57,933 bases of DNA from an uncultured Verrucomicrobiota bacterium (lineage in GTDB: Bacteria > Verrucomicrobiota > Verrucomicrobiia > Limisphaerales > UBA9464): assembly GCA_903854475.1 (NCBI GenBank), contig CAINWP010000142.1, forward strand, positions 1 through 57,933, given 5' to 3'. The number at the start of each line of letters is the position of its first letter. Position 1 is the first letter of the stretch. Shown here piece by piece: positions 9,981 to 42,420 of this stretch. Under the pieces are notes generated by a model that made no database searches, had not been told where the DNA came from, and was given only the letters and a program-made list of their open reading frames with translations. The position numbers were made by a program, and so were the translations under genes.

Positions 9981-10874
9981 TCACTGAGCCCGAGTGCTGC
10001 GCTCAGCCATCCAATACACATCCGAGCGAGCCAGATTATCGCGGGCCGACACGTTCAAAGGAAGTGTCTGCCCCTTCTTGACGGGTTGCAGGAACTGAGA
10101 GGAACGCCAGCGATGGATCTCGGAATGACCGTCGGCGAAGGCGAATCCAGCCGCCCCGTTGTGATAAGATGCCGGAAAATCTACAACTTGCCGCGTTGAG
10201 GTGAGATTACCCTCCACAAATCCCGCCATATCCACCACGAAGTATCCATCGTTGATGGAGTCTTCACGCTCATCCACCAGCACCCAAGTGTTGGATGGCC
10301 CCGGAAGGTTGAGATCAGACTCTTTCGTATACACCTTCCACTGAGTACCGGAATTGCCCCAACCCGGACCTCCCACCCAATTGTTCATGGAGACGCTGCG
10401 AATGCGAGAGACGTACTTCTTCTCGCGCGTGTTGTAGGCCATCGTCATGTCGGCCGGACAATGCCAAATGCCGATAGACCCCCCGCAATAGGGCCAGAGG
10501 ACACTCTTCTTGGTGTATGCCTCGTGATCCCAATTGTTTGGATCCCGCTCCATGGCTTTGGTGTTGTCCAACCAACTGCCGCCGGTCCAGTTGGGCACTT
10601 CCCGCCCCGCCCCAGGAGGAGTCCAACTGGCGGCCCCGGGAAAGCGGTCTCCGTTGTCGGCCGCATACAACTTCCACGCGAGCATCAACTGCTTGGTGTT
10701 GTTCATGCAGGAAATGCCCGTCGCTTTAGATTTTGCCTTGGCCAACGCCGGAAGGAGCATTCCCGCCAAAATCGCGATGATGGCGATGACCACCAGCAGT
10801 TCGATCAGGGTAAATCCCGGTGATCGAGGGAGGCGTTGTCCGCACAGGGGGGATGTTTTCATTGGGGTTCTCAT
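9981..10874 (-). CDS. prepilin-type H-X9-DG protein (pseudopilin 1)
   Basis: About 297 aa. A short basic leader ends in [20 protein letters not shown], a type IV prepilin peptidase site followed by the hydrophobic helix. A large extracytoplasmic domain follows, ending with the H-X9-DG signature ([20 protein letters not shown]) and a C-terminal [10 protein letters not shown]. No secretin, ATPase or peptidase gene is nearby. Such proteins occur in many copies in Verrucomicrobia and Planctomycetes; their role is not established. The frame extends to a TTG at 10949, but ATG codons at 10874 and 10862 give a normal leader. Paralogues lie at 31594 and 41569. Confidence 0.88.
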
Positions 10875-11025
10875 TGGATAGTGAAGCAGGGATCTGAAGG
10901 CAAGGTCCTCGTTGCGCGCTCTCCACTCTCGAAGCGAGTTGATCTTCAATGTCCGTTCCTAACGTCCACCAGCCTGTCGGGGCGGGTCGCAACGATGGAA
11001 TGCAACGGCCGGCTTCCTCACCGGT

Positions 11026-12699: not shown

Positions 12700-13986
12700 C
12701 TATTTCTCTTGGTTGAGCGTGGTTCCTTGAGGCCCGAAAACGGGCGACGACGGTGACGACGCGGATGCGGCCAACCGCTGCCTCTCGGCCGCTTTAGCAA
12801 AGGGCCAGTAAACCAGCATCGCTAAACCCAACGAAACAACACCCCAAACTGCTGCCCGCCAATCACCACCGGTCAGCAAGTAATGACCGATGACGGGCGG
12901 TGTGGTCCACGGGACGTTGACGAAGGGTTTTCGAATCCAACCCCAGTCCATCAGGCAATAAGTCGAGGCTGTCAGCAGCAATGCGTTGGCCACGTAAGGG
13001 ATCATGAACCACGGATTGAGCACGATGGGGATGCCGAAGAAAATGGGCTCGTTGATTTGGAAGATTTGGGTCGGCAAGGACAGACGGCTAATTTTCCGGT
13101 AAACCGGGTCCTTGGACATCGCCAAAATTAACGCCAACCCCAGCGTCGCTCCGGTGCCGCCAACATTGACGAAGGTCGAAAAGAATCCATTGGCAGTGAC
13201 ATAGGGCATGGGCTGACCGCGGCCCACGGCCTCCACATTCTCAGCCAGGAATTGCAGGAAAATCGGTGCCACAAAGGCGTCAAGCGTGTTGTCGCCATTG
13301 ATCCCCACCGACCACAGCAAGGTCACCAAAAAGGCGTACACCAGAATGCCCGGCAGGGTGTTTAAGGCGAAGACCAGCGGCTTGAAGAGCGTCTGGACGC
13401 CCGCATCGATGTCCACCCCCATCACAAACCTTAGGATCCAAAAAGCCACCACGAGGAACACGGTGGGGGTCAGTGAAATGAACGTATCCGAGACCACCTT
13501 GGGCACCGAATCCGGCAAGCGGATGACCCAATTGGCATCGGTGAAGGCCTTCTGGATGCGGACTGTCACTAGGGCGATGAGAATGGCCGTGAACAACCCC
13601 TTCGATCCCAGACCCTCCATGACCAGAGTTTGATCCTTCATCTCTAACTGGATGAGCAGGAAGACCAGCGCCGACTGGGTCGCGCTCAAGATGGCCTCTT
13701 GTTTGAGCCGCGTTCCCAGATCGTAGCCGATGGCCAGACAGACGAAGAGACCCAAGAGTCCGAAGGTGGCGGTGACCGGAATTTGCAGGAGCGGCAGGTG
13801 CGGAGCCATCCGGGCTTCCCACCCTGGGATGGGCAAATAAGCCACCACCATGAAGAGCCCGCCCAAAATGGTCAAAGGGACCACGGAAACCATCCCGGCG
13901 CGGATGGAGGCGAGATAGGTGTTCTCACTGAGCGCGGTCATCCGCGGGATCAGCCAGCGGTGAAGAAAGAGGGACAGCGAGTTCAT
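12700..13986 (-). CDS. PTS-type sugar permease EIIC, lactose/cellobiose family
   Basis: 428 aa, about ten membrane segments. It matches the EIIC domain of the lactose/N,N'-diacetylchitobiose/cellobiose family: N-terminal LIPRMTALSENTYLASIRAGM, central VNVGGTGATLGLALILAMSKDP, and the substrate-site NEP triad in QINEPIFFG (N312-P314). There is no EIIB (cysteine phosphorylation) or EIIA domain fused, and none encoded within 15 kb. It lies 21 bases after the GNAT gene and three bases before the hydrolase. In phosphotransferase systems EIIC moves sugars coupled to phosphorylation. Here the protein may work without phosphorylation or with EIIA/EIIB encoded elsewhere. Confidence 0.9.
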   Translation of the reverse strand: MNSLSLFLHRWLIPRMTALSENTYLASIRAGMVSVVPLTILGGLFMVVAYLPIPGWEARMAPHLPLLQIPVTATFGLLGLFVCLAIGYDLGTRLKQEAILSATQSALVFLLIQLEMKDQTLVMEGLGSKGLFTAILIALVTVRIQKAFTDANWVIRLPDSVPKVVSDTFISLTPTVFLVVAFWILRFVMGVDIDAGVQTLFKPLVFALNTLPGILVYAFLVTLLWSVGINGDNTLDAFVAPIFLQFLAENVEAVGRGQPMPYVTANGFFSTFVNVGGTGATLGLALILAMSKDPVYRKISRLSLPTQIFQINEPIFFGIPIVLNPWFMIPYVANALLLTASTYCLMDWGWIRKPFVNVPWTTPPVIGHYLLTGGDWRAAVWGVVSLGLAMLVYWPFAKAAERQRLAASASSPSSPVFGPQGTTLNQEK

Positions 13987-14007
13987 GGCACGTGGGGCTA
14001 GGCGGTC

Positions 14008-14676
14008 TCACTTCTCACTCGAGGCCGGCGTAGGAACATTCAATCGGTGACCCAAATACAGGCAGCCTTCCATCCCCTCTCCAACCTGGATGAGCGGCTG
14101 GAATCCCAGCTTCCGGTAAAACCCCTGAGCCGAAACATTGGGCAAGCTCACCCCGAGATGCGCTCCCGGAGATCCGCGCTGACGCAGCAGCGCCAGCACT
14201 TCCGCCATCATCGCCCGACCGAGCCCTCGACCTTGGGCCCGTGGCAGCAAGTCGATGTGCACATGCGAGGGATATTGGTCGTAGGGCTCCGGGCAAAAAT
14301 AATCCGGGTGGTGATAGACGTTGTGGATTTGCTGGACCCGGTTCCATCCGCCCGGGTCGCCGGTCGGAGCCGGATAAGCCCGGCACAACTCCGGCCGCCA
14401 CTCGGCTTCATACCGAGCGTAAAACGCGTGGGAATCCATCGCCGCGAGCACGTACCCGCAAATACCCTGGTCATCTTCGAGGATCCGCGCCAACTCCGGC
14501 TCGTAGTCCAGATAGGGCCCAACGAATACCCGGCCCAACGCATCCGGGTCGTCGCGGTAAAACGACTCGCCATCCTGTCCGAAATTACCGGTCTTTAGGC
14601 ACACCGCGTAGGCTCCTGCTCTGTCACCCGCTTGGGGTGGGCGCAACTGAAAGGGAAAAGGAATGGCTGGAGTCAT
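14008..14676 (-). CDS. GNAT acetyltransferase related to the C-terminal domain of animal O-GlcNAcase
   Basis: 222 aa, one GNAT fold. It has an acetyl-CoA loop of the R/Q-x2-G-x-G/A type (RAQGRGLGRAM, residues 146-156) and a C-terminal GFYRKLGF strand. Segments EDDQGICGYVLAAMD (67-81), EWRPELCRAYPAP (92-104) and YPSHVHIDLLP (135-145) follow, in order, the human OGA acetyltransferase-like domain as I remember it (EDEDGICGYALGTVD, then WIPFMQEKY, then FPSLIKMDI). The human domain lacks the acetyl-CoA loop; this protein keeps it. The start ATG overlaps the GH84 stop as ATGA, implying translational coupling. An open extension to 14847 is antisense-like sequence inside the GH84 gene. The acetyl acceptor is unknown. 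Confidence 0.88.
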   Translation of the reverse strand: MTPAIPFPFQLRPPQAGDRAGAYAVCLKTGNFGQDGESFYRDDPDALGRVFVGPYLDYEPELARILEDDQGICGYVLAAMDSHAFYARYEAEWRPELCRAYPAPTGDPGGWNRVQQIHNVYHHPDYFCPEPYDQYPSHVHIDLLPRAQGRGLGRAMMAEVLALLRQRGSPGAHLGVSLPNVSAQGFYRKLGFQPLIQVGEGMEGCLYLGHRLNVPTPASSEK

Positions 14677-16055
14677 ACCGCCGATTCGGGTCCGGGGTTT
14701 ATGGAGTTCCATTCCATCGAGCCGTCCGGCTTGGGTTTCAGGAACGACTGCAAGCGCACCACAAAGCCTCCGCGATACGTCTTCGGCCGGTGGAAGTCGG
14801 ACTCGAACGGAGTGCCCGCGCGGGCCGGATCGATCTGGTGGCTCCACCAGCGGTCAATGAGGTCCAGTTCCTCGCGCAATTCCCAGACCCGCCGGTGGAA
14901 CGCGTGGAACAGGCCGCGATCCTTCAAATCCACCAACCGCGCACAAAAGTCCTTCAACCGAAGCATCCGCGCTCGCACGGCCAGCGACTCCGGGTCCTCC
15001 GGCCGCCGGGGCGACGACAAACTCCGGGCGATGGCCTGCGCCAACGCATCCGCCTCAGGCCCCTCCTGATAAGGCAGATAGAAACAATCCGCGAAGGTCA
15101 CCAAATCATCGAAACTCAACGGAGCCCCCACGGTGGCGAATCGAGGCCACCAAGCCTTCAAGCCCTCCAGGAAGGACGCCCTGGAATCCCACGCTCCGTC
15201 GGCCGCGAGGTAGGCCCCGAACGAATGGATCGGCACGAAGTTCAGCGGAAACTCCGTATTGGGATTCAGCAGAATTCCCCGCACCGCCTGTTTCAACTCC
15301 AGAGGTCTTCCGGCATACGGACCGCAGAAAAAGCGGCGACCATCGTAATCGTTGGCGAAGAGATTGTCCCAAATCAGCGGAGGACGCCGCAGGATCTTGG
15401 TCAAGCGAGCGAGCGGGTCCAAATCCAGCGTCTCGGAAATGATCTCCGGACCCGTCCAAAAAATGTCGATGTCAGGATGAAGACCCAGACCGAGTGTTTC
15501 CAAATACCCCTCACCTCCGTGACGTGCAGCAACCATCCGTGCGCAATAGGGCGTTGGGCACACCAGAAAGCGCCCCTGCGTGCGGGCGCGAGTCCAGGCG
15601 TACACCTCATTGACCCAGGCGGCTTGAGCCGCCGCCAGAGAGCCCCAGCGAGCCAGATCTTCCGAGCGCATCGCGTCTGGGATGTCATCGAGTAAGATGC
15701 AAACGTCGCTCAAGCCGGCGTCAAGCAATTGGGTCAAGCGGCCTTGGATCGCAGCCATGTCGGCGGGATCCGAATAAGTGACATCCAATCCCGGGCTACA
15801 GGCATAGATGAGACGCAAACCGCGCTGCCGGCATGCGGCCACTGCCTCCCGGACCTCCATCAACCCGGATTCATCATACGGCTGCCTCCAGATGGCTCGC
15901 TGGTGCAAATCATCCTTGGGACCATAGAAATAGGTGTTCAAGCCGCTGCGAACCATCCAATCCCAGAGTTGGTATCGCTCGGCTGAAGTCCACGGCGGGC
16001 CATAGAAACCCTCGATCACGCCGGATAAAAACTGGGGTTCGGAAGAGTCAGTCAT
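14673..16055 (-). CDS. GH84 beta-N-acetylglucosaminidase, O-GlcNAcase-like
   Basis: 460 aa, no signal peptide: the GH84 domain begins at once (SGVIEGFYGPPW, residues 11-22). The catalytic aspartate pair is in CILLDDIPDAM (D123, D124), and IWDNLFANDYDGRRFF (228-243) is a substrate-binding stretch. After the barrel come a helical segment with DCFYLPYQEGPEA (323-335) and a YRGGFVVRLQSFL end (427-439), which resemble the stalk of human OGA. Secreted bacterial GH84 enzymes usually have an N-terminal alpha/beta domain and signal peptide; both are missing. The expected reaction is hydrolysis of beta-GlcNAc from proteins or small glycosides in the cytoplasm by substrate-assisted catalysis. It is the first gene of the operon. 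Confidence 0.93.
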   Translation of the reverse strand: MTDSSEPQFLSGVIEGFYGPPWTSAERYQLWDWMVRSGLNTYFYGPKDDLHQRAIWRQPYDESGLMEVREAVAACRQRGLRLIYACSPGLDVTYSDPADMAAIQGRLTQLLDAGLSDVCILLDDIPDAMRSEDLARWGSLAAAQAAWVNEVYAWTRARTQGRFLVCPTPYCARMVAARHGGEGYLETLGLGLHPDIDIFWTGPEIISETLDLDPLARLTKILRRPPLIWDNLFANDYDGRRFFCGPYAGRPLELKQAVRGILLNPNTEFPLNFVPIHSFGAYLAADGAWDSRASFLEGLKAWWPRFATVGAPLSFDDLVTFADCFYLPYQEGPEADALAQAIARSLSSPRRPEDPESLAVRARMLRLKDFCARLVDLKDRGLFHAFHRRVWELREELDLIDRWWSHQIDPARAGTPFESDFHRPKTYRGGFVVRLQSFLKPKPDGSMEWNSINPGPESAV

Positions 16056-16347
16056 CGGAGGAGTGGAGCGCTGCGCCGATCAAGCCCCCGGGTCACCGGC
16101 CCGGTCAAGCCTGTCCCCAACGAATCCGCACCTTCGACCATTCTGCCTACTTTGAACCTGTCACTCTATACGCAGCCACTGGAAGCCCGGCCGGCGCGAC
16201 TCCCCAATCGAATCCTCACCCAACTCGATTCCAAACATTGAACCTGTCACTCTATTGCGGTTTCTACTTTGAACCTGTCACTCTATTTGATTTCTGGCTT
16301 CATCGAATCCTTGATTGAAACGGTAGGGATTCTAACTTCTCTCTCTG
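16056..16347. other. divergent intergenic region between GH84 operon and Rrf2 gene
   Basis: 292 bases without a gene. It must hold the promoter of the minus-strand GH84 operon and that of the Rrf2 gene. The most visible content is a cluster of three direct repeats (listed separately). I could not place convincing -35/-10 pairs; TTGATT at 16311 lies too close to TTCTAA at 16330 for a normal promoter. Confidence 0.6.
16151..16287. repeat. three direct repeats of TTGAACCTGTCACTCTAT
   Basis: Three 18-base copies at 16152-16169, 16238-16255 and 16269-16286 are identical in TTGAACCTGTCACTCTAT. Two are preceded by CTACT. Spacing is 86 and 31 bases. The 12-base core TGAACCTGTCAC recurs at 33905-33916 beside the RAYT gene. 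On the minus strand the core reads GTGACAGGTTCA. They look like REP-type dispersed repeats, although regulatory sites are possible. Confidence 0.85.
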
Positions 16348-16809
16348 ATGAAGCTGACCGTCCGCGGTGAATACGCCCTGCGCGCCCTGACCCACCTTGG
16401 GTTGCGCTATTCGCCCAAGGTCATCCAAATTTCGGCGATCTCATCGGCGGAAAACATCCCGAAGCGTTTCCTCGAGCAAATTCTCAACGACCTCCGGACA
16501 GGAGGGTTCGTCGAAAGCCGTCGCGGAGTCGCCGGAGGATACCGTCTGGCCAAACCGCCGGAGAAGATCGTCATCGCCGGGGTGATCCGACACATCGAAG
16601 GAGCTTTGGCTCCGATTGGCTGTGTTTCAGAAAACTATTACGAGAAATGCAACTGCCCCGATGAGGCCCGATGCGCCCTGCGCTCAATCATGAAGGAGGT
16701 CCGCGACTCCATCGCCCACCTCCTCGAAAAAACCACCCTCGCTAATCTGGTCACCCGCGCCGAAAAGCTCAAGGCCGCCGACCTAGCCGATGCGGACTTC
16801 GTGATCTGA
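16348..16809 (+). CDS. Rrf2 family transcriptional regulator with cysteine cluster
   Basis: 153 aa. The N-terminal winged helix begins MKLTVRGEYALRALTHLG and contains FLEQILNDLRTGGFVESRRGVAGGYRLA, the family recognition region. The cysteines are C92, C101, C103 and C109. IscR uses three cysteines in the same region to hold a [2Fe-2S] cluster, so iron-sulfur or redox sensing is plausible. It is divergent from the GH84 operon and upstream of the NCS2 permease gene. No isc or suf genes are in the window, so the regulon is unknown. Confidence 0.92.
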   Translation: MKLTVRGEYALRALTHLGLRYSPKVIQISAISSAENIPKRFLEQILNDLRTGGFVESRRGVAGGYRLAKPPEKIVIAGVIRHIEGALAPIGCVSENYYEKCNCPDEARCALRSIMKEVRDSIAHLLEKTTLANLVTRAEKLKAADLADADFVI

Positions 16810-16887
16810 GATTCAACCATCGCCTCAAATCACCGTGTTACGGCCCAACGCCGCTGCGGTATCCGCGCTAGTGACGCATTCCGAGCA

Positions 16888-16906
16888 TGATGATCACTAA
16901 TCATCA
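16888..16906. promoter_or_regulatory. 7-bp inverted repeat upstream of the nucleobase permease gene
   Basis: TGATGAT (16888-16894), spacer CACTA, ATCATCA (16900-16906): a perfect dyad typical in size of a dimeric regulator site. It lies about 175 bases upstream of the permease start, in the 271-base gap after the Rrf2 gene. A second perfect palindrome, GGGACCGGTCCC, is at 16986-16997. The function of both is unproven. Confidence 0.4.
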
Positions 16907-17080
16907 CCACCCTCCTCTCGACTGCGGGCAGCTTGGCGACTCCCAATGCGGTGAAAAAGTCTGTCCCCGGGCACAAACCCTCGACGGGACCGGTCCCCAA
17001 CGGGCTACCAGCCAGGCACGGCTCGCCTCCTGCTTCCGCGGGGATGTTAATTTCCTCAGTCACAAGAACACTTCCACCTC

Positions 17081-18409
17081 ATGATCGAACGTTGGTTTCA
17101 ACTGACCCACCACGGCAGCACGATCCGCAAGGAGATCATCGCCGGCATCACCACCTTCGCCGCCATGGCCTACATTCTGGCGGTGAACCCGGCGATTCTC
17201 GGGATGAGTGGCATGGACAAGGGAGCCCTCATCACCGCCACCGCCCTGGCCTCAGCCATCATGACTCTCGCCATGGCTCTAGCCACCAACTACCCCATCG
17301 CGCTGGCTCCGGGCATGGGCTTGAATGCGTTCTTCACTTTCGGCATTTGCCTCGGTGCCAAGATCCCTTGGCAGGCGGCCCTAGGACTGGTGTTTTACGG
17401 AGGCGTCCTGTTTATGGTCCTGAGTCTGACGGGCATCCGTCAGCGCTTGTTGGAGGCCATTCCCCAGGAACTTAAACTGGCTATCACCTGCGGTATCGGG
17501 CTTTTTATCGCCTTCATCGGCCTCAAGAACGGGGGGGTCATCGTGGACAATCCGGCCACACTGGTAGGCTTGGCCGCCTTCAACCAACCCAGCCCCCTGA
17601 TGGTCATGGCCGGCGTTGTCGTGGCCGCGGCGTTGGTCTGGAGAAAAGTGCCCGGTGCAATCATCCTGACCGTGATCGGACTCACGATCTTGGGACTCTT
17701 CACCCAGACCTCCGACGGCAAGGGCGGACTCATTCCCATCACCCGGATGCCCGAGGCCTGGGTCTCCATGCCCGCCTCGCTGTCTCCGAGCTTTTTGAAA
17801 CTAGACCTCGGTTATTTCTGGAGCCACTGGCGCCAATGCCTCCCCATCCTGCTCTCCCTGCTCTTCGTGGATCTCTTCGACAACATGGGTACCTTAATCG
17901 GCGTGTGCCACCGGGCCGGATTGCTCGATTCGAGGGGGCAGTTGCCGAAGATCGGTCGTGCCCTCATGGCCGACGCCTCGGCCGCCATGGTTGGATCGGT
18001 CTTGGGAACCAGCACCGTGACCAGCTACATCGAATCAGCCGCCGGCGTCGAAGCGGGCGGCCGTACCGGCCTGAGCGCCATTATCACGGCTGGGTGTTTC
18101 CTTGTGGCTTTGTTCCTGTCTCCGCTCATCGCCATCATTCCCGAGGTGGCAACAGCCCCGGTCTTGGTTCTGGTGGGCATCTTCATGATGCAGAGCATCG
18201 CTGAGTTGGACCTCAAAGACTTCTCCAAGGCCGTTCCTGCGGTCATTACCATGATCGCCATGCCCCTGACCTTCAGCATCGCCGAAGGCATTGCTCTCGG
18301 ATTTGTGGCCTACATCGGCTTCAGCCTATTGACCGGACGTGCTCGCACCGTGCCCCCGCTCGCACACCTGCTGGGGCTACTCTTCTTGGCTCATCTGATT
18401 TTCCGATGA
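17081..18409 (+). CDS. NCS2-family purine base permease (AzgA/PbuG type)
   Basis: 442 aa with about a dozen membrane segments. It matches AzgA-like hypoxanthine/guanine/adenine:proton symporters: N-terminal EIIAGITTFAAMAYILAVNP, the half-helix motif NYPIALAPGMGLNAFFTF (near 69-86), LFVDLFDNMGTLIGV (near 265-279) and GTSTVTSYIESAAGVEAGGRTGL (starting near 308), each diagnostic for the family. It imports purine bases across the inner membrane. Its stop overlaps the start of the nucleosidase gene (ATGA), which points to use of bases released outside the cytoplasm. Confidence 0.93.
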   Translation: MIERWFQLTHHGSTIRKEIIAGITTFAAMAYILAVNPAILGMSGMDKGALITATALASAIMTLAMALATNYPIALAPGMGLNAFFTFGICLGAKIPWQAALGLVFYGGVLFMVLSLTGIRQRLLEAIPQELKLAITCGIGLFIAFIGLKNGGVIVDNPATLVGLAAFNQPSPLMVMAGVVVAAALVWRKVPGAIILTVIGLTILGLFTQTSDGKGGLIPITRMPEAWVSMPASLSPSFLKLDLGYFWSHWRQCLPILLSLLFVDLFDNMGTLIGVCHRAGLLDSRGQLPKIGRALMADASAAMVGSVLGTSTVTSYIESAAGVEAGGRTGLSAIITAGCFLVALFLSPLIAIIPEVATAPVLVLVGIFMMQSIAELDLKDFSKAVPAVITMIAMPLTFSIAEGIALGFVAYIGFSLLTGRARTVPPLAHLLGLLFLAHLIFR

Positions 18410-19326
18410 AACCGATTTGGCTCCTCTTGCTCTGTTTCGGATGCGGTTGCTCATCGGCCTCGCTGAAATCAGTTCGTGACCGACGTCCGGGTCCCTTCAT
18501 CGCGGTGATGGCCGCCTACCCGCCGGAGATCGAAGCCAACGAATCCGTCCTGACCGAGGGCGGAACCCGTGTGGCCACCTGGCGGATCGACGGAATTGTC
18601 TTCCAGCATGTCCGCTTCGAAGGCCACGACCTCCTGCTCTTCCCTAGCGGCGTGAGCATGGTCAATGCTGCCATGAACACCCAGAAGGCGCTCGATCGCT
18701 TCAGGATCAGCCACGTGTTCTTCGCCGGAATCGCAGGCGGCATTAATCCAGAGCGACACATCGGTGATGTGGTCATCCCAGAACACTGGTACCACCACAG
18801 CGAGGCGGCCTACCTCAACCCGCGTCCCGATGGCACCGGTTACGTGCTGCCCGACTACTTCAAACCCAAACGGGAGAATTTTGGTTTCATCTTCCCTGAC
18901 ACCGTGGAAGTCATCCGCGAAGGCATGGCCAAACCGGAGTCCCGGGAAACATTTGATGCAGACCCTCAACTTCTGGCCATCGCCCAAAAGGCCATTCATC
19001 ACGTTCCGCCCATCCAATTGGGTTCACGGACGGCTGAACTGACGGTCGGGGGCAACGGAATCTCCGGCCCCGTGTTCCTCGACAACCGCCAGTACCGCCA
19101 GTGGGCGTTTCGAGTCTGGAAGGCCGACTGCCTCGACATGGAATCAACCGCCATCGCACAGGTCTGTTGGGCCAACCAAACACCTTTCCTCATTGTCCGC
19201 AGTCTGAGCGACCTGGCGGGCGGACAAGAAGGCATCAACGACGCTGACCGAACGGAACGCCCTGTCTCCCGCCACGCCTCAATAGTCCTACGGGAAATCC
19301 TGAAGCGACTCCCGGCGCATCACTAA
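18406..19326 (+). CDS. exported nucleoside phosphorylase/nucleosidase-family lipoprotein
   Basis: 306 aa. A hydrophobic leader with Cys-rich end (LLLLCFGCGCSS) looks like a lipoprotein signal, with C13 or C15 as the lipidated residue. The body is the PNP/MTA-SAH nucleosidase fold: GVSMVNAAMNTQKALDRF near 84-101, FFAGIAGGINPERHIGDVVIPE near 106-127, the ribose-binding CLDMESTAIAQ (E246) and the catalytic-aspartate motif SLSDLAGG (D269). The set is that of MTAN-like nucleosidases. Export is unusual, since the classic enzymes are cytoplasmic. Coupling to the purine permease suggests hydrolysis of extracellular purine nucleosides followed by base import. Substrate preference cannot be read from sequence. 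Confidence 0.85.
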   Translation: MKPIWLLLLCFGCGCSSASLKSVRDRRPGPFIAVMAAYPPEIEANESVLTEGGTRVATWRIDGIVFQHVRFEGHDLLLFPSGVSMVNAAMNTQKALDRFRISHVFFAGIAGGINPERHIGDVVIPEHWYHHSEAAYLNPRPDGTGYVLPDYFKPKRENFGFIFPDTVEVIREGMAKPESRETFDADPQLLAIAQKAIHHVPPIQLGSRTAELTVGGNGISGPVFLDNRQYRQWAFRVWKADCLDMESTAIAQVCWANQTPFLIVRSLSDLAGGQEGINDADRTERPVSRHASIVLREILKRLPAHH

Positions 19327-19633
19327 TCTTCCTCCCGGTGGGGCTCACATAACCCACCGGAAATTTGGCGAGATCCGCCCGCAAGAATTTTGCCCGGAGG
19401 CATCCAGCATCGTGAGACAACTGAGACAACACAACTGCGTCACTGTGTCACTCTGTCGCATTCCATTCCCCTGACCGAACGAACTTATTCGTCACTAGCA
19501 CTTCAAAAGTGACCAGAAATCGATGATTTCCATCGGTTTTTATCGAAATCCTAAATTTTCGTCGTCCCGCTGAAATCGGCATTCGCCTTGCAGGTGGCTG
19601 AGAACAACAGAGGCACTTAAACGGAAACCGACT
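19327..19633. other. intergenic region upstream of dnaK
   Basis: 307 bases. It contains imperfect repeats near 19415-19435 (TGAGACAAC twice) and 19438-19458 (GTCACT/CTGTC runs). GTCACT (19491) and AGTGAC (19508) form a loose dyad that encloses CACTTCAAAAGTG. A terminator-like hairpin is listed separately. I see no CIRCE element (TTAGCACTC-N9-GAGTGCTAA) and no clear heat-shock sigma promoter. There is no strong Shine-Dalgarno before the dnaK ATG. Confidence 0.5.
19517..19541 (+). terminator. hairpin with U run upstream of dnaK
   Basis: AAATCGATG, loop ATTTC, CATCGGTTTTT: a nine-pair stem (one G-U) ending in a T run. It may end the permease-nucleosidase transcript, about 190 bases after that stop codon. 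It could instead lie in the dnaK leader. The stem is AU-rich and modest. Confidence 0.4.
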
Positions 19634-21571
<1,938 letters not shown>

Positions 21572-31593: not shown

Positions 31594-32457
31594 TCAACGG
31601 CGAACCGTGGTGTGTTCGCCGAGCCAAGTCATATCAGGCCGACTAGCGGTTCCCGGGTACCCGCTTCCGTGGACGCCGTGGTGATCCACATTGGAAGTCG
31701 GGTTATTGAACGTGCCACTGACCCATCGGTGAGATTCTGCATGACCGTCGGCGAAGGAGAAATTGGAACTCCGCCCGTGGTAATTGCCCGGTACGTGATA
31801 CGCTCCGCCTGAGGTGGTCGCCATGTTCACTCCGAAGAATGGGCGGCAGATTGCCTTAGGATGAATTTCTCCATGAACAAAAATATCCGAGGCGGACAGC
31901 ATGTCTGTAGTCTTTCGAAAATTGCGGTAAGTTCGATCGTCTCCGAGGGCGCTGGTCGCGTAGGGAGCATCATCGGCCCAATTGACCCAAGGATTCTGGC
32001 CGTAGGTACGAGGGTTACCCTGCTTGCGACCATTAACGATCTCGGTGTAACGATCCCCGGGGCACTTGAATGATCCCAAGGCCGGCAGATACGTTGCCAA
32101 AAGCGAAACCCGCGGATTGATGAGACTTGAGGCCGAGGAATCGACCAGATTATTCCCATCTCGTCCCTCGACCCAGTACTTGGGAACGTAGTTGGCAGGA
32201 GGATTTATGAGATTCACCGTTGGATCTCCGGCGCCATTCGGAGGGAAAAAATCTCGGTTTTCAACGACATAGAGCATCGAAGCCACCATCAACTGTTTCT
32301 CGTTGTTGATGCAGGCGATACCAGTGGCTTTTTGGCGCGCTTTGGCCAGCGCAGGCAAAAGCATTCCAGCCAAGATCGCAATGATGGCGATGACCACAAG
32401 CAGTTCAATCAATGTGAAGCCGGCGGACTGCTGCGAACGAGGGGAATTGATTCTCAC
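31594..32457 (-). CDS. prepilin-type H-X9-DG protein (pseudopilin 2)
   Basis: 287 aa with a GTG start. A short leader precedes [21 protein letters not shown], the prepilin peptidase site and helix. The C-terminal region has [20 protein letters not shown] (H-X9-DG) and ends [11 protein letters not shown], a variant of the tail in the two paralogues. The helix segment is the same in all three proteins, while the DNA differs at many silent sites. It lies four bases after the TPR gene. Assembly partners are not in the window. Confidence 0.88.
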
Positions 32458-41568: not shown

Positions 41569-42420
41569 TCAGCGAGCGTATGTGCTGCGCTCCTTCATCC
41601 AATTGAGGTCAATGCCGCGATCGGCCGGAGCTGCTCCGATGGTAGCACCCTTCTTAGTGACGTTACCGTCACGCCACCGCTTGATCTCAGAGTGACCATC
41701 TGCGAAGGACAGGCCACCCGCACCGTTGTGGTAGGTCGCCGGAATATCCACCCAATTTCCGGAAGTCGGATCGACTACGAACCATCCGTCGTTAATGGAA
41801 GCCGGGTTCTCATCAATGGTCACCCAAGTGTCGCTCGGGCGTTGGATCTGAGACTGACGACGGAAGCTAGTGATACCGGCACCCTGATAACCGCCGCTGC
41901 TGCTATCGGCGGCCCAAGCATTAATTGGGTTCATCCAAGCGTTCATCGACATGGAACGAACCGTCAAGATACCACCACCACCAAGAGGACGGCGGGTACC
42001 GCCCTGCCACGAATGACGATCTGACGGGCACTTGTAGGGCCCGAGAGCGTTCACAAACCCGTACATCGCCGAATGCATAATCAATGTACTATTGGTTGCC
42101 ACATTGCCCACATCCATGGTGCCCATGCACCACTGGTTCAGTGGGTAATTGCGCGTCGCGCTCGTCACGGAAACCAAGGAATCCAGACCCGCAGTGCGAC
42201 ATACAGCATCAGAGTTATCACCGGAGTATAGGGTCCAGCCCAACATGAGCTGCTTGCCGTTGTTCATGCACATGATGCCTTGTGCCTTGGACTTAGCCTT
42301 GCCAAGTGCGGGCAGAAGCATACCGGCAAGAATGGCAATGATGGCAATAACTACCAACAGTTCAATGAGCGTAAAACCTTTGCGCTGGGTATCCACCGAA
42401 ACCTTATGGGAGATCTTCAT
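41569..42420 (-). CDS. prepilin-type H-X9-DG protein (pseudopilin 3)
   Basis: 283 aa. Leader [15 protein letters not shown] precedes [18 protein letters not shown]. The C-terminal part has [20 protein letters not shown] (H-X9-DG) and ends [10 protein letters not shown]. It resembles pseudopilin 1 most: [20 protein letters not shown] corresponds to [20 protein letters not shown] in that protein. It is a single-gene unit with its own terminator. A type IV pilus or type II secretion-like assembly elsewhere must process it. Confidence 0.88.

Follow-up and report, generated by a model that had tools for sequence, protein, structure and literature searches.

A leader-bearing MTAN-fold nucleosidase encoded in overlap with an AdeP-like permease: a probable periplasmic purine salvage pair in Verrucomicrobiota

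What is the role of a nucleosidase of the MTAN/PNP fold whose start codon overlaps the stop codon of a purine-base permease gene and whose protein begins with a lipoprotein-like leader? The question is raised by a locus in a contig of an uncultured Verrucomicrobiota bacterium (GCA_903854475.1, CAINWP010000142.1). The whole stretch of 57,933 nucleotides is called the window here. An earlier note, made from the letters alone, had proposed that nucleosides are cleaved outside the cytoplasm and that the freed base is imported. With a probability of about three in four, the two genes form a single unit of transcription and translation for the scavenging of purine nucleosides outside the cytoplasm, by the mechanism proposed below.

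The permease and nucleosidase genes

Both genes lie on the forward strand. The permease gene (17081..18409, +) and the gene for a nucleosidase of 306 residues (18406..19326, +) share the four bases ATGA (18406..18409, +): the start codon ATG begins at 18406 and the stop codon TGA occupies 18407-18409, an overlap that had already been described. Rfam finds no RNA elements in the window, and a scan of 16200-19700 for sigma-70-type promoters gave no match. At 16152-16300, upstream of an Rrf2 gene, there are short repeats, imperfect and about 18-32 bases long, that cross-match within related loci. Elsewhere in the window, a lactose/cellobiose-type PTS EIIC (passing TIGR00410) is encoded beside a GNAT acetyltransferase and a PF07555 N-acetylglucosaminidase (12700-16055, -), and no further PTS parts were noticed near it. 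Several prepilin-like proteins with nearly identical leaders are encoded at 9981-10949, 31594-32457 and 41569-42420.

The permease matches PF00860 (Xan_ur_permease, Pfam, E 2e-45), and its solved relatives in the PDB are the plant proteins AZG1 (E 4e-68) and AZG2, which confirms the earlier assignment as an AzgA-like permease. Identity is 41% to E. coli AdeP and AdeQ versus 36% to GhxP/GhxQ, and the permease tree splits the AdeP/Q side, including the window protein, from GhxP/Q at 100/100. Judged by its sequence, this NCS2 purine-base permease is on the adenine (AdeP/AdeQ) rather than the guanine/hypoxanthine (GhxP/GhxQ) branch, and its AdeP-like character can serve only as a guide to the base that is carried. 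AdeP/AdeQ and AZG1/AZG2, members of the same family, are its closest characterised relatives.

The nucleosidase matches PF01048 (Pfam, E 8e-32). Its AlphaFold2 model, built from 48 relatives, has a mean pLDDT of 90.8, and the top ranks in both Foldseek and VIA-align are held by MTANs and futalosine hydrolases. The best VIA-align match is the Aeromonas hydrophila MTAN 5b7q (Z 29.3, 248 residues, 2.5 Å). Model and both structure comparisons thus give the MTAN fold, and alignment recovers every catalytic residue of the E. coli enzyme. Glu41 (18526..18528, +) corresponds to the catalytic Glu12, Met245-Glu246 (19138..19143, +) to the ribose-binding Met173-Glu174, and Asp269 (19210..19212, +) to Asp197, which protonates N7; F151, R193 and S196 are found as F224, R265 and S268. 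The claim of an MTAN/PNP-fold protein with catalytic Glu and Asp is therefore borne out. E41, E246, R265 and S268 are invariant across the 48 relatives, and W128, N227 and R231 are invariant residues specific to the family. From established MTAN chemistry, we infer that the enzyme is a hydrolytic nucleosidase.

Annotation pipelines name such proteins MTA/SAH nucleosidases, and the window protein scores 78.3 bits against the TIGR01704 model for this activity (NCBIfam, cut-off 73.8). This score, the presence of the MTAN catalytic set and a periplasmic MTA/SAH nucleosidase as the closest structure speak for an alternative: the exported enzyme would act on MTA/SAH (or 5'-deoxyadenosine) leaking from the bacterium's own metabolism, either to detoxify or to recover these by-products, and the permease would take the adenine back up. 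We regard this alternative as unlikely. The second NCBIfam model, NF004079, gives 101.4 bits, below its cut-off of 169, and sister operons carry an adenosine-deaminase-like gene, not methionine-salvage genes. In addition, the residues Met9, Phe105 and Phe207 of the 5'-alkylthio pocket of MTAN are Y38, N138 and A280 in the window protein, and the hydrophobic pocket is not kept. Across the exported clade, Met9 is replaced by Tyr or Phe, Phe105 by the polar Asn or Arg, and Phe207 variably by Ala, Met or Ile; the alignment of the loop region here is less certain. As the pocket is not conserved, the enzyme may act mainly on substrates other than MTA and SAH. The changed pocket, read with the same caution for the loop, suggests that a polar 5' group is accommodated, i.e. 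that of ordinary nucleosides. Environmental nucleosides of the adenosine or inosine type are more likely to be the natural substrate than MTA or SAH.

Leader and location of the nucleosidase

The nucleosidase begins with MKPIWLLLLCFGCGCSSASL, a predicted N-terminal export leader that extends to C15 (18406..18450, +). The earlier note had counted two cysteines in it, C13 and C15, and no perfect lipobox. Both cysteines are present, but the count misses a third, C10. A lipobox of the form [LVI][ASTVI][GAS]C is indeed not matched, as C10-F-G precedes C13 (CFGC) and G-C-G precedes C15 (GCGC). C15 and not C13 aligns with the cysteine of close relatives bearing a clean lipobox, for example ...MVIGC-TS in the locus L031, which makes C15 the probable lipidation site. 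When lipobox usage was surveyed across related loci, 9 cases were obtained, too few for judging whether Gly is tolerated at position -3; a NUP lipoprotein of the same genome also has Gly at -3.

Nearly all relatives examined, from Verrucomicrobia, Proteobacteria and Cyanobacteria, carry a lipoprotein, Sec or Tat-like leader. They were taken from species-representative genomes, with starts picked by a simple hydrophobicity rule and not by SignalP. Verrucomicrobial orthologues mostly have lipobox-type leaders, among them LTAC (LLTAC), VSGC (VVSGC), FAGC (LFAGC) and VIGC. Alphaproteobacteria and most Betaproteobacteria have Sec leaders with A-x-A-like sites (ALAE, ASAQ), two Calothrix species have twin-arginine-like leaders, and the leader of L042 is only weakly hydrophobic. 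A lipoprotein-like leader, as first claimed, is thus supported by leaders that are conserved clade-wide in three chemically different forms, and sequence comparison supports export of the window nucleosidase.

A tree was built that also included further verrucomicrobial MTAN-like proteins, E. coli Mtn and one MtnN of Borreliella. In it, the clade of the window nucleosidase is supported at 100/100 and excludes both E. coli Mtn and the Borreliella MtnN, the latter on a long branch. Three proteins labelled canonical (L145-L147) fall inside the exported clade and have leaders too. A second, separate verrucomicrobial group of the MTAN fold (L126-L132) bears signal-peptide-like leaders as well, which indicates that export arose more than once. 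The two Calothrix homologues, at 59% identity and with no permease nearby, are nested among verrucomicrobial ones; the nesting and the Tat-like leader suggest lateral transfer and a changed export route.

The poor lipobox of the window protein and an internal ATG (M35) would be compatible with a leader that is a membrane anchor or the product of a mis-assigned start. The enzyme would then be cytoplasmic and its coupling to the permease a matter of expression only, for example with nucleosides split after uptake. This is highly improbable. Homologues carry the textbook lipoprotein, Sec and Tat-like leaders described above, and M35 lies within the first core strand of the AlphaFold2 model (E31-36), so that a protein starting at this residue could not keep the fold intact. 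Furthermore, NCS2 permeases of the AzgA/AdeP branch transport bases and not nucleosides.

For the favoured reading of cleavage outside the cytoplasm, we propose the following mechanism. The short hydrophobic leader would carry the nucleosidase across the inner membrane, and a lipid on a leader cysteine would probably hold it in the inner or outer membrane. In the periplasm, the enzyme would hydrolyse the N-glycosidic bond of purine nucleosides with the MTAN machinery. By analogy to MTAN, Glu41 would activate water, Asp269 would protonate N7, and Glu246 and Met245 would hold the ribose. The AdeP/AdeQ-like permease would then import the released base, which is most likely adenine but may be hypoxanthine, and APRT or HPRT, both of which are encoded in the same genome, would convert it to the nucleotide.

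Linkage, co-occurrence and joint loss

In 42 relatives, at 18 verrucomicrobial and 24 alphaproteobacterial loci, the permease gene immediately precedes the nucleosidase gene in the same orientation; the linked species are often close kin, and these locus counts are not independent. In 36 of the 42 loci the genes overlap by 4 or 1 bases (-4/-1). In Verrucomicrobia and Sphingomonadales, the nucleosidase gene is thus repeatedly linked to a permease gene of the AdeP/AdeQ type. It speaks against the proposed unit that most of the listed relatives beyond these two groups have no adjoining AzgA-type permease. The arrangement varies within the Alphaproteobacteria, with the permease downstream at six loci, at L098 and L105 and, about 2 kb off, at L067, L074, L079 and L081; at L077 it is convergent. 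In the permease tree, the linked label changes at least twice among grouped rows, with unlinked verrucomicrobial permeases inside, and on these sequences the pairing may have arisen once or several times.

Co-occurrence was evaluated in 59 related genomes. The permease is present in all 20 genomes with the nucleosidase, versus 3 of 39 genomes without it (Fisher 6e-13, a p-value to be read as a guide because the genomes are related). On the other side, several genomes of the same genus have no pair. Two of these, G001 and G005, have lost the block corresponding to 16816..19194 (+) with identical breakpoints, which removes the whole permease gene and the nucleosidase gene except its 3' end. What remains is a 3' scar of the nucleosidase gene between the Rrf2 gene and dnaK. 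A single deletion with the same breakpoints means that both genes were lost together. In a further genome, G011, the nucleosidase reading frame is broken into two that overlap, both with about 95% identity to the window protein; this may be either a frameshift or an assembly error.

In Burkholderiales relatives the permease is often absent, and genes for a BMP-type ABC transporter are found near five of the loci (L062, L063, L070, L085 and L106). At L106, the gene ahead of the nucleosidase gene encodes a BMP-type binding protein, and at L063 the ABC genes are followed by a gene of the cytosine-deaminase type. Conserved leaders, recurrent overlapping linkage, co-occurrence, joint loss and ABC genes in place of the permease all back the original proposal, and this comparative evidence supports export of the nucleosidase and its coupling to base import.

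Known systems and the wider purine pathway

Most enzymes of this fold are indeed cytoplasmic, as the earlier note says of the classic ones, but exported MTANs are already known. The closest in structure is the MTA/SAH nucleosidase of Aeromonas hydrophila (PDB 5b7p/5b7q), which is periplasmic according to its entry title and 19% identical to the window enzyme. The NUP family (PF06516, purine nucleoside permease) comprises exported members of the PNP superfamily; the window nucleosidase differs from it in matching PF01048 only, with no PF06516 match in Pfam. In E. coli, neither adeP nor adeQ adjoins a nucleosidase gene; adeQ adjoins the gene for an adenine deaminase.

The exported MTANs Bgp and MtnN of Borrelia burgdorferi have been proposed to supply adenine (PMC7557402). 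They share with the window enzyme the MTAN fold, a signal peptide and, as predicted for the window enzyme, a location outside the inner membrane. In contrast, the window enzyme belongs to a different MTAN branch and is about 25% identical to an MtnN of Borreliella, and no permease gene adjoins the mtnN of B. afzelii that was examined. Bgp also binds glycosaminoglycans (PMC7557402), and this precedent would allow a surface protein that serves mainly in adhesion or signalling, with nucleosidase activity being secondary. We consider such a role the least probable of all readings, since the window clade differs from the Borreliella exported MTAN tested and the genomic context concerns purine metabolism throughout.

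The nucleoside hydrolase Nuh of Pseudomonas aeruginosa, which we take to belong to the IunH family and not to the PNP/MTAN fold, offers a parallel in function; Pfam finds no IunH-type match among the window proteins. Nuh hydrolyses adenosine and inosine in the periplasm, followed by base uptake (PMC5437708), the same order of events as proposed for the window pair. The inner-membrane adenine transporter of this route was reported as unidentified in a review (PMC5437708), whereas a candidate base importer adjoins the window nucleosidase.

The genome that contains the window encodes cytoplasmic MTAP and PNP. With these and its APRT and HPRT, the window enzyme would not be a housekeeping enzyme of MTA salvage. 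The idea that it is the sole MTA salvage enzyme of the cell was dropped, as MTAP is present. In six genomes of the same family, a third gene precedes the permease gene and encodes an adenosine-deaminase-like protein (PF00962) that also carries a leader; one other genome, G026, has deaminase and permease with the nucleosidase absent. In the window's genome, the orthologous deaminase gene is on contig C235, away from the pair. There it stands in a row on one strand (L226) with genes for a TonB-dependent receptor and the NUP lipoprotein (PF06516, E 1e-112). This row resembles a second unit of exported proteins for purine nucleosides. In another verrucomicrobial family, a protein of the PNP superfamily that has a long extension at its N-terminus (L199, 398-1648, -) adjoins an AzgA-like permease on the opposite strand. 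The deaminase in the sister operons would favour inosine and hypoxanthine, and the main base may be adenine or hypoxanthine. A combined route of outer-membrane entry, periplasmic deamination and/or cleavage, base import and salvage to the nucleotide is plausible.

Exported MTANs, a periplasmic nucleoside hydrolase and base permeases are each already known separately. In the open-access literature, with most subscription journals outside the search, we found no description of a pair of nucleosidase and permease, and nothing on the Aeromonas periplasmic MTAN. Within the literature searched, what seems to be new is that the nucleosidase is paired with a base importer at the level of the operon, and that this arrangement extends across phyla. 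Going by sequence, the window pair is probably a periplasmic purine salvage module with activity on adenosine-type nucleosides. Beyond that, and at slightly less than even odds, there may be a widespread, undescribed class of exported MTAN-fold enzymes re-purposed from MTA/SAH to adenosine/inosine. Its members would have been joined more than once to a base importer, either an AdeP-type permease or a BMP-type ABC transporter, and in some lineages also to an exported adenosine deaminase, giving self-contained periplasmic salvage with no nucleoside importer.

The label MTA/SAH nucleosidase implies methionine salvage in the cytoplasm. Leader and context suggest instead that these proteins serve nutrient scavenging in many Verrucomicrobia and sphingomonads. 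The window permease becomes a candidate importer for the base that the window enzyme would release; for Nuh, the corresponding step was reported as unidentified (PMC5437708). More generally, the pair offers a testable answer to how Gram-negative bacteria may use dissolved nucleosides without a nucleoside importer.
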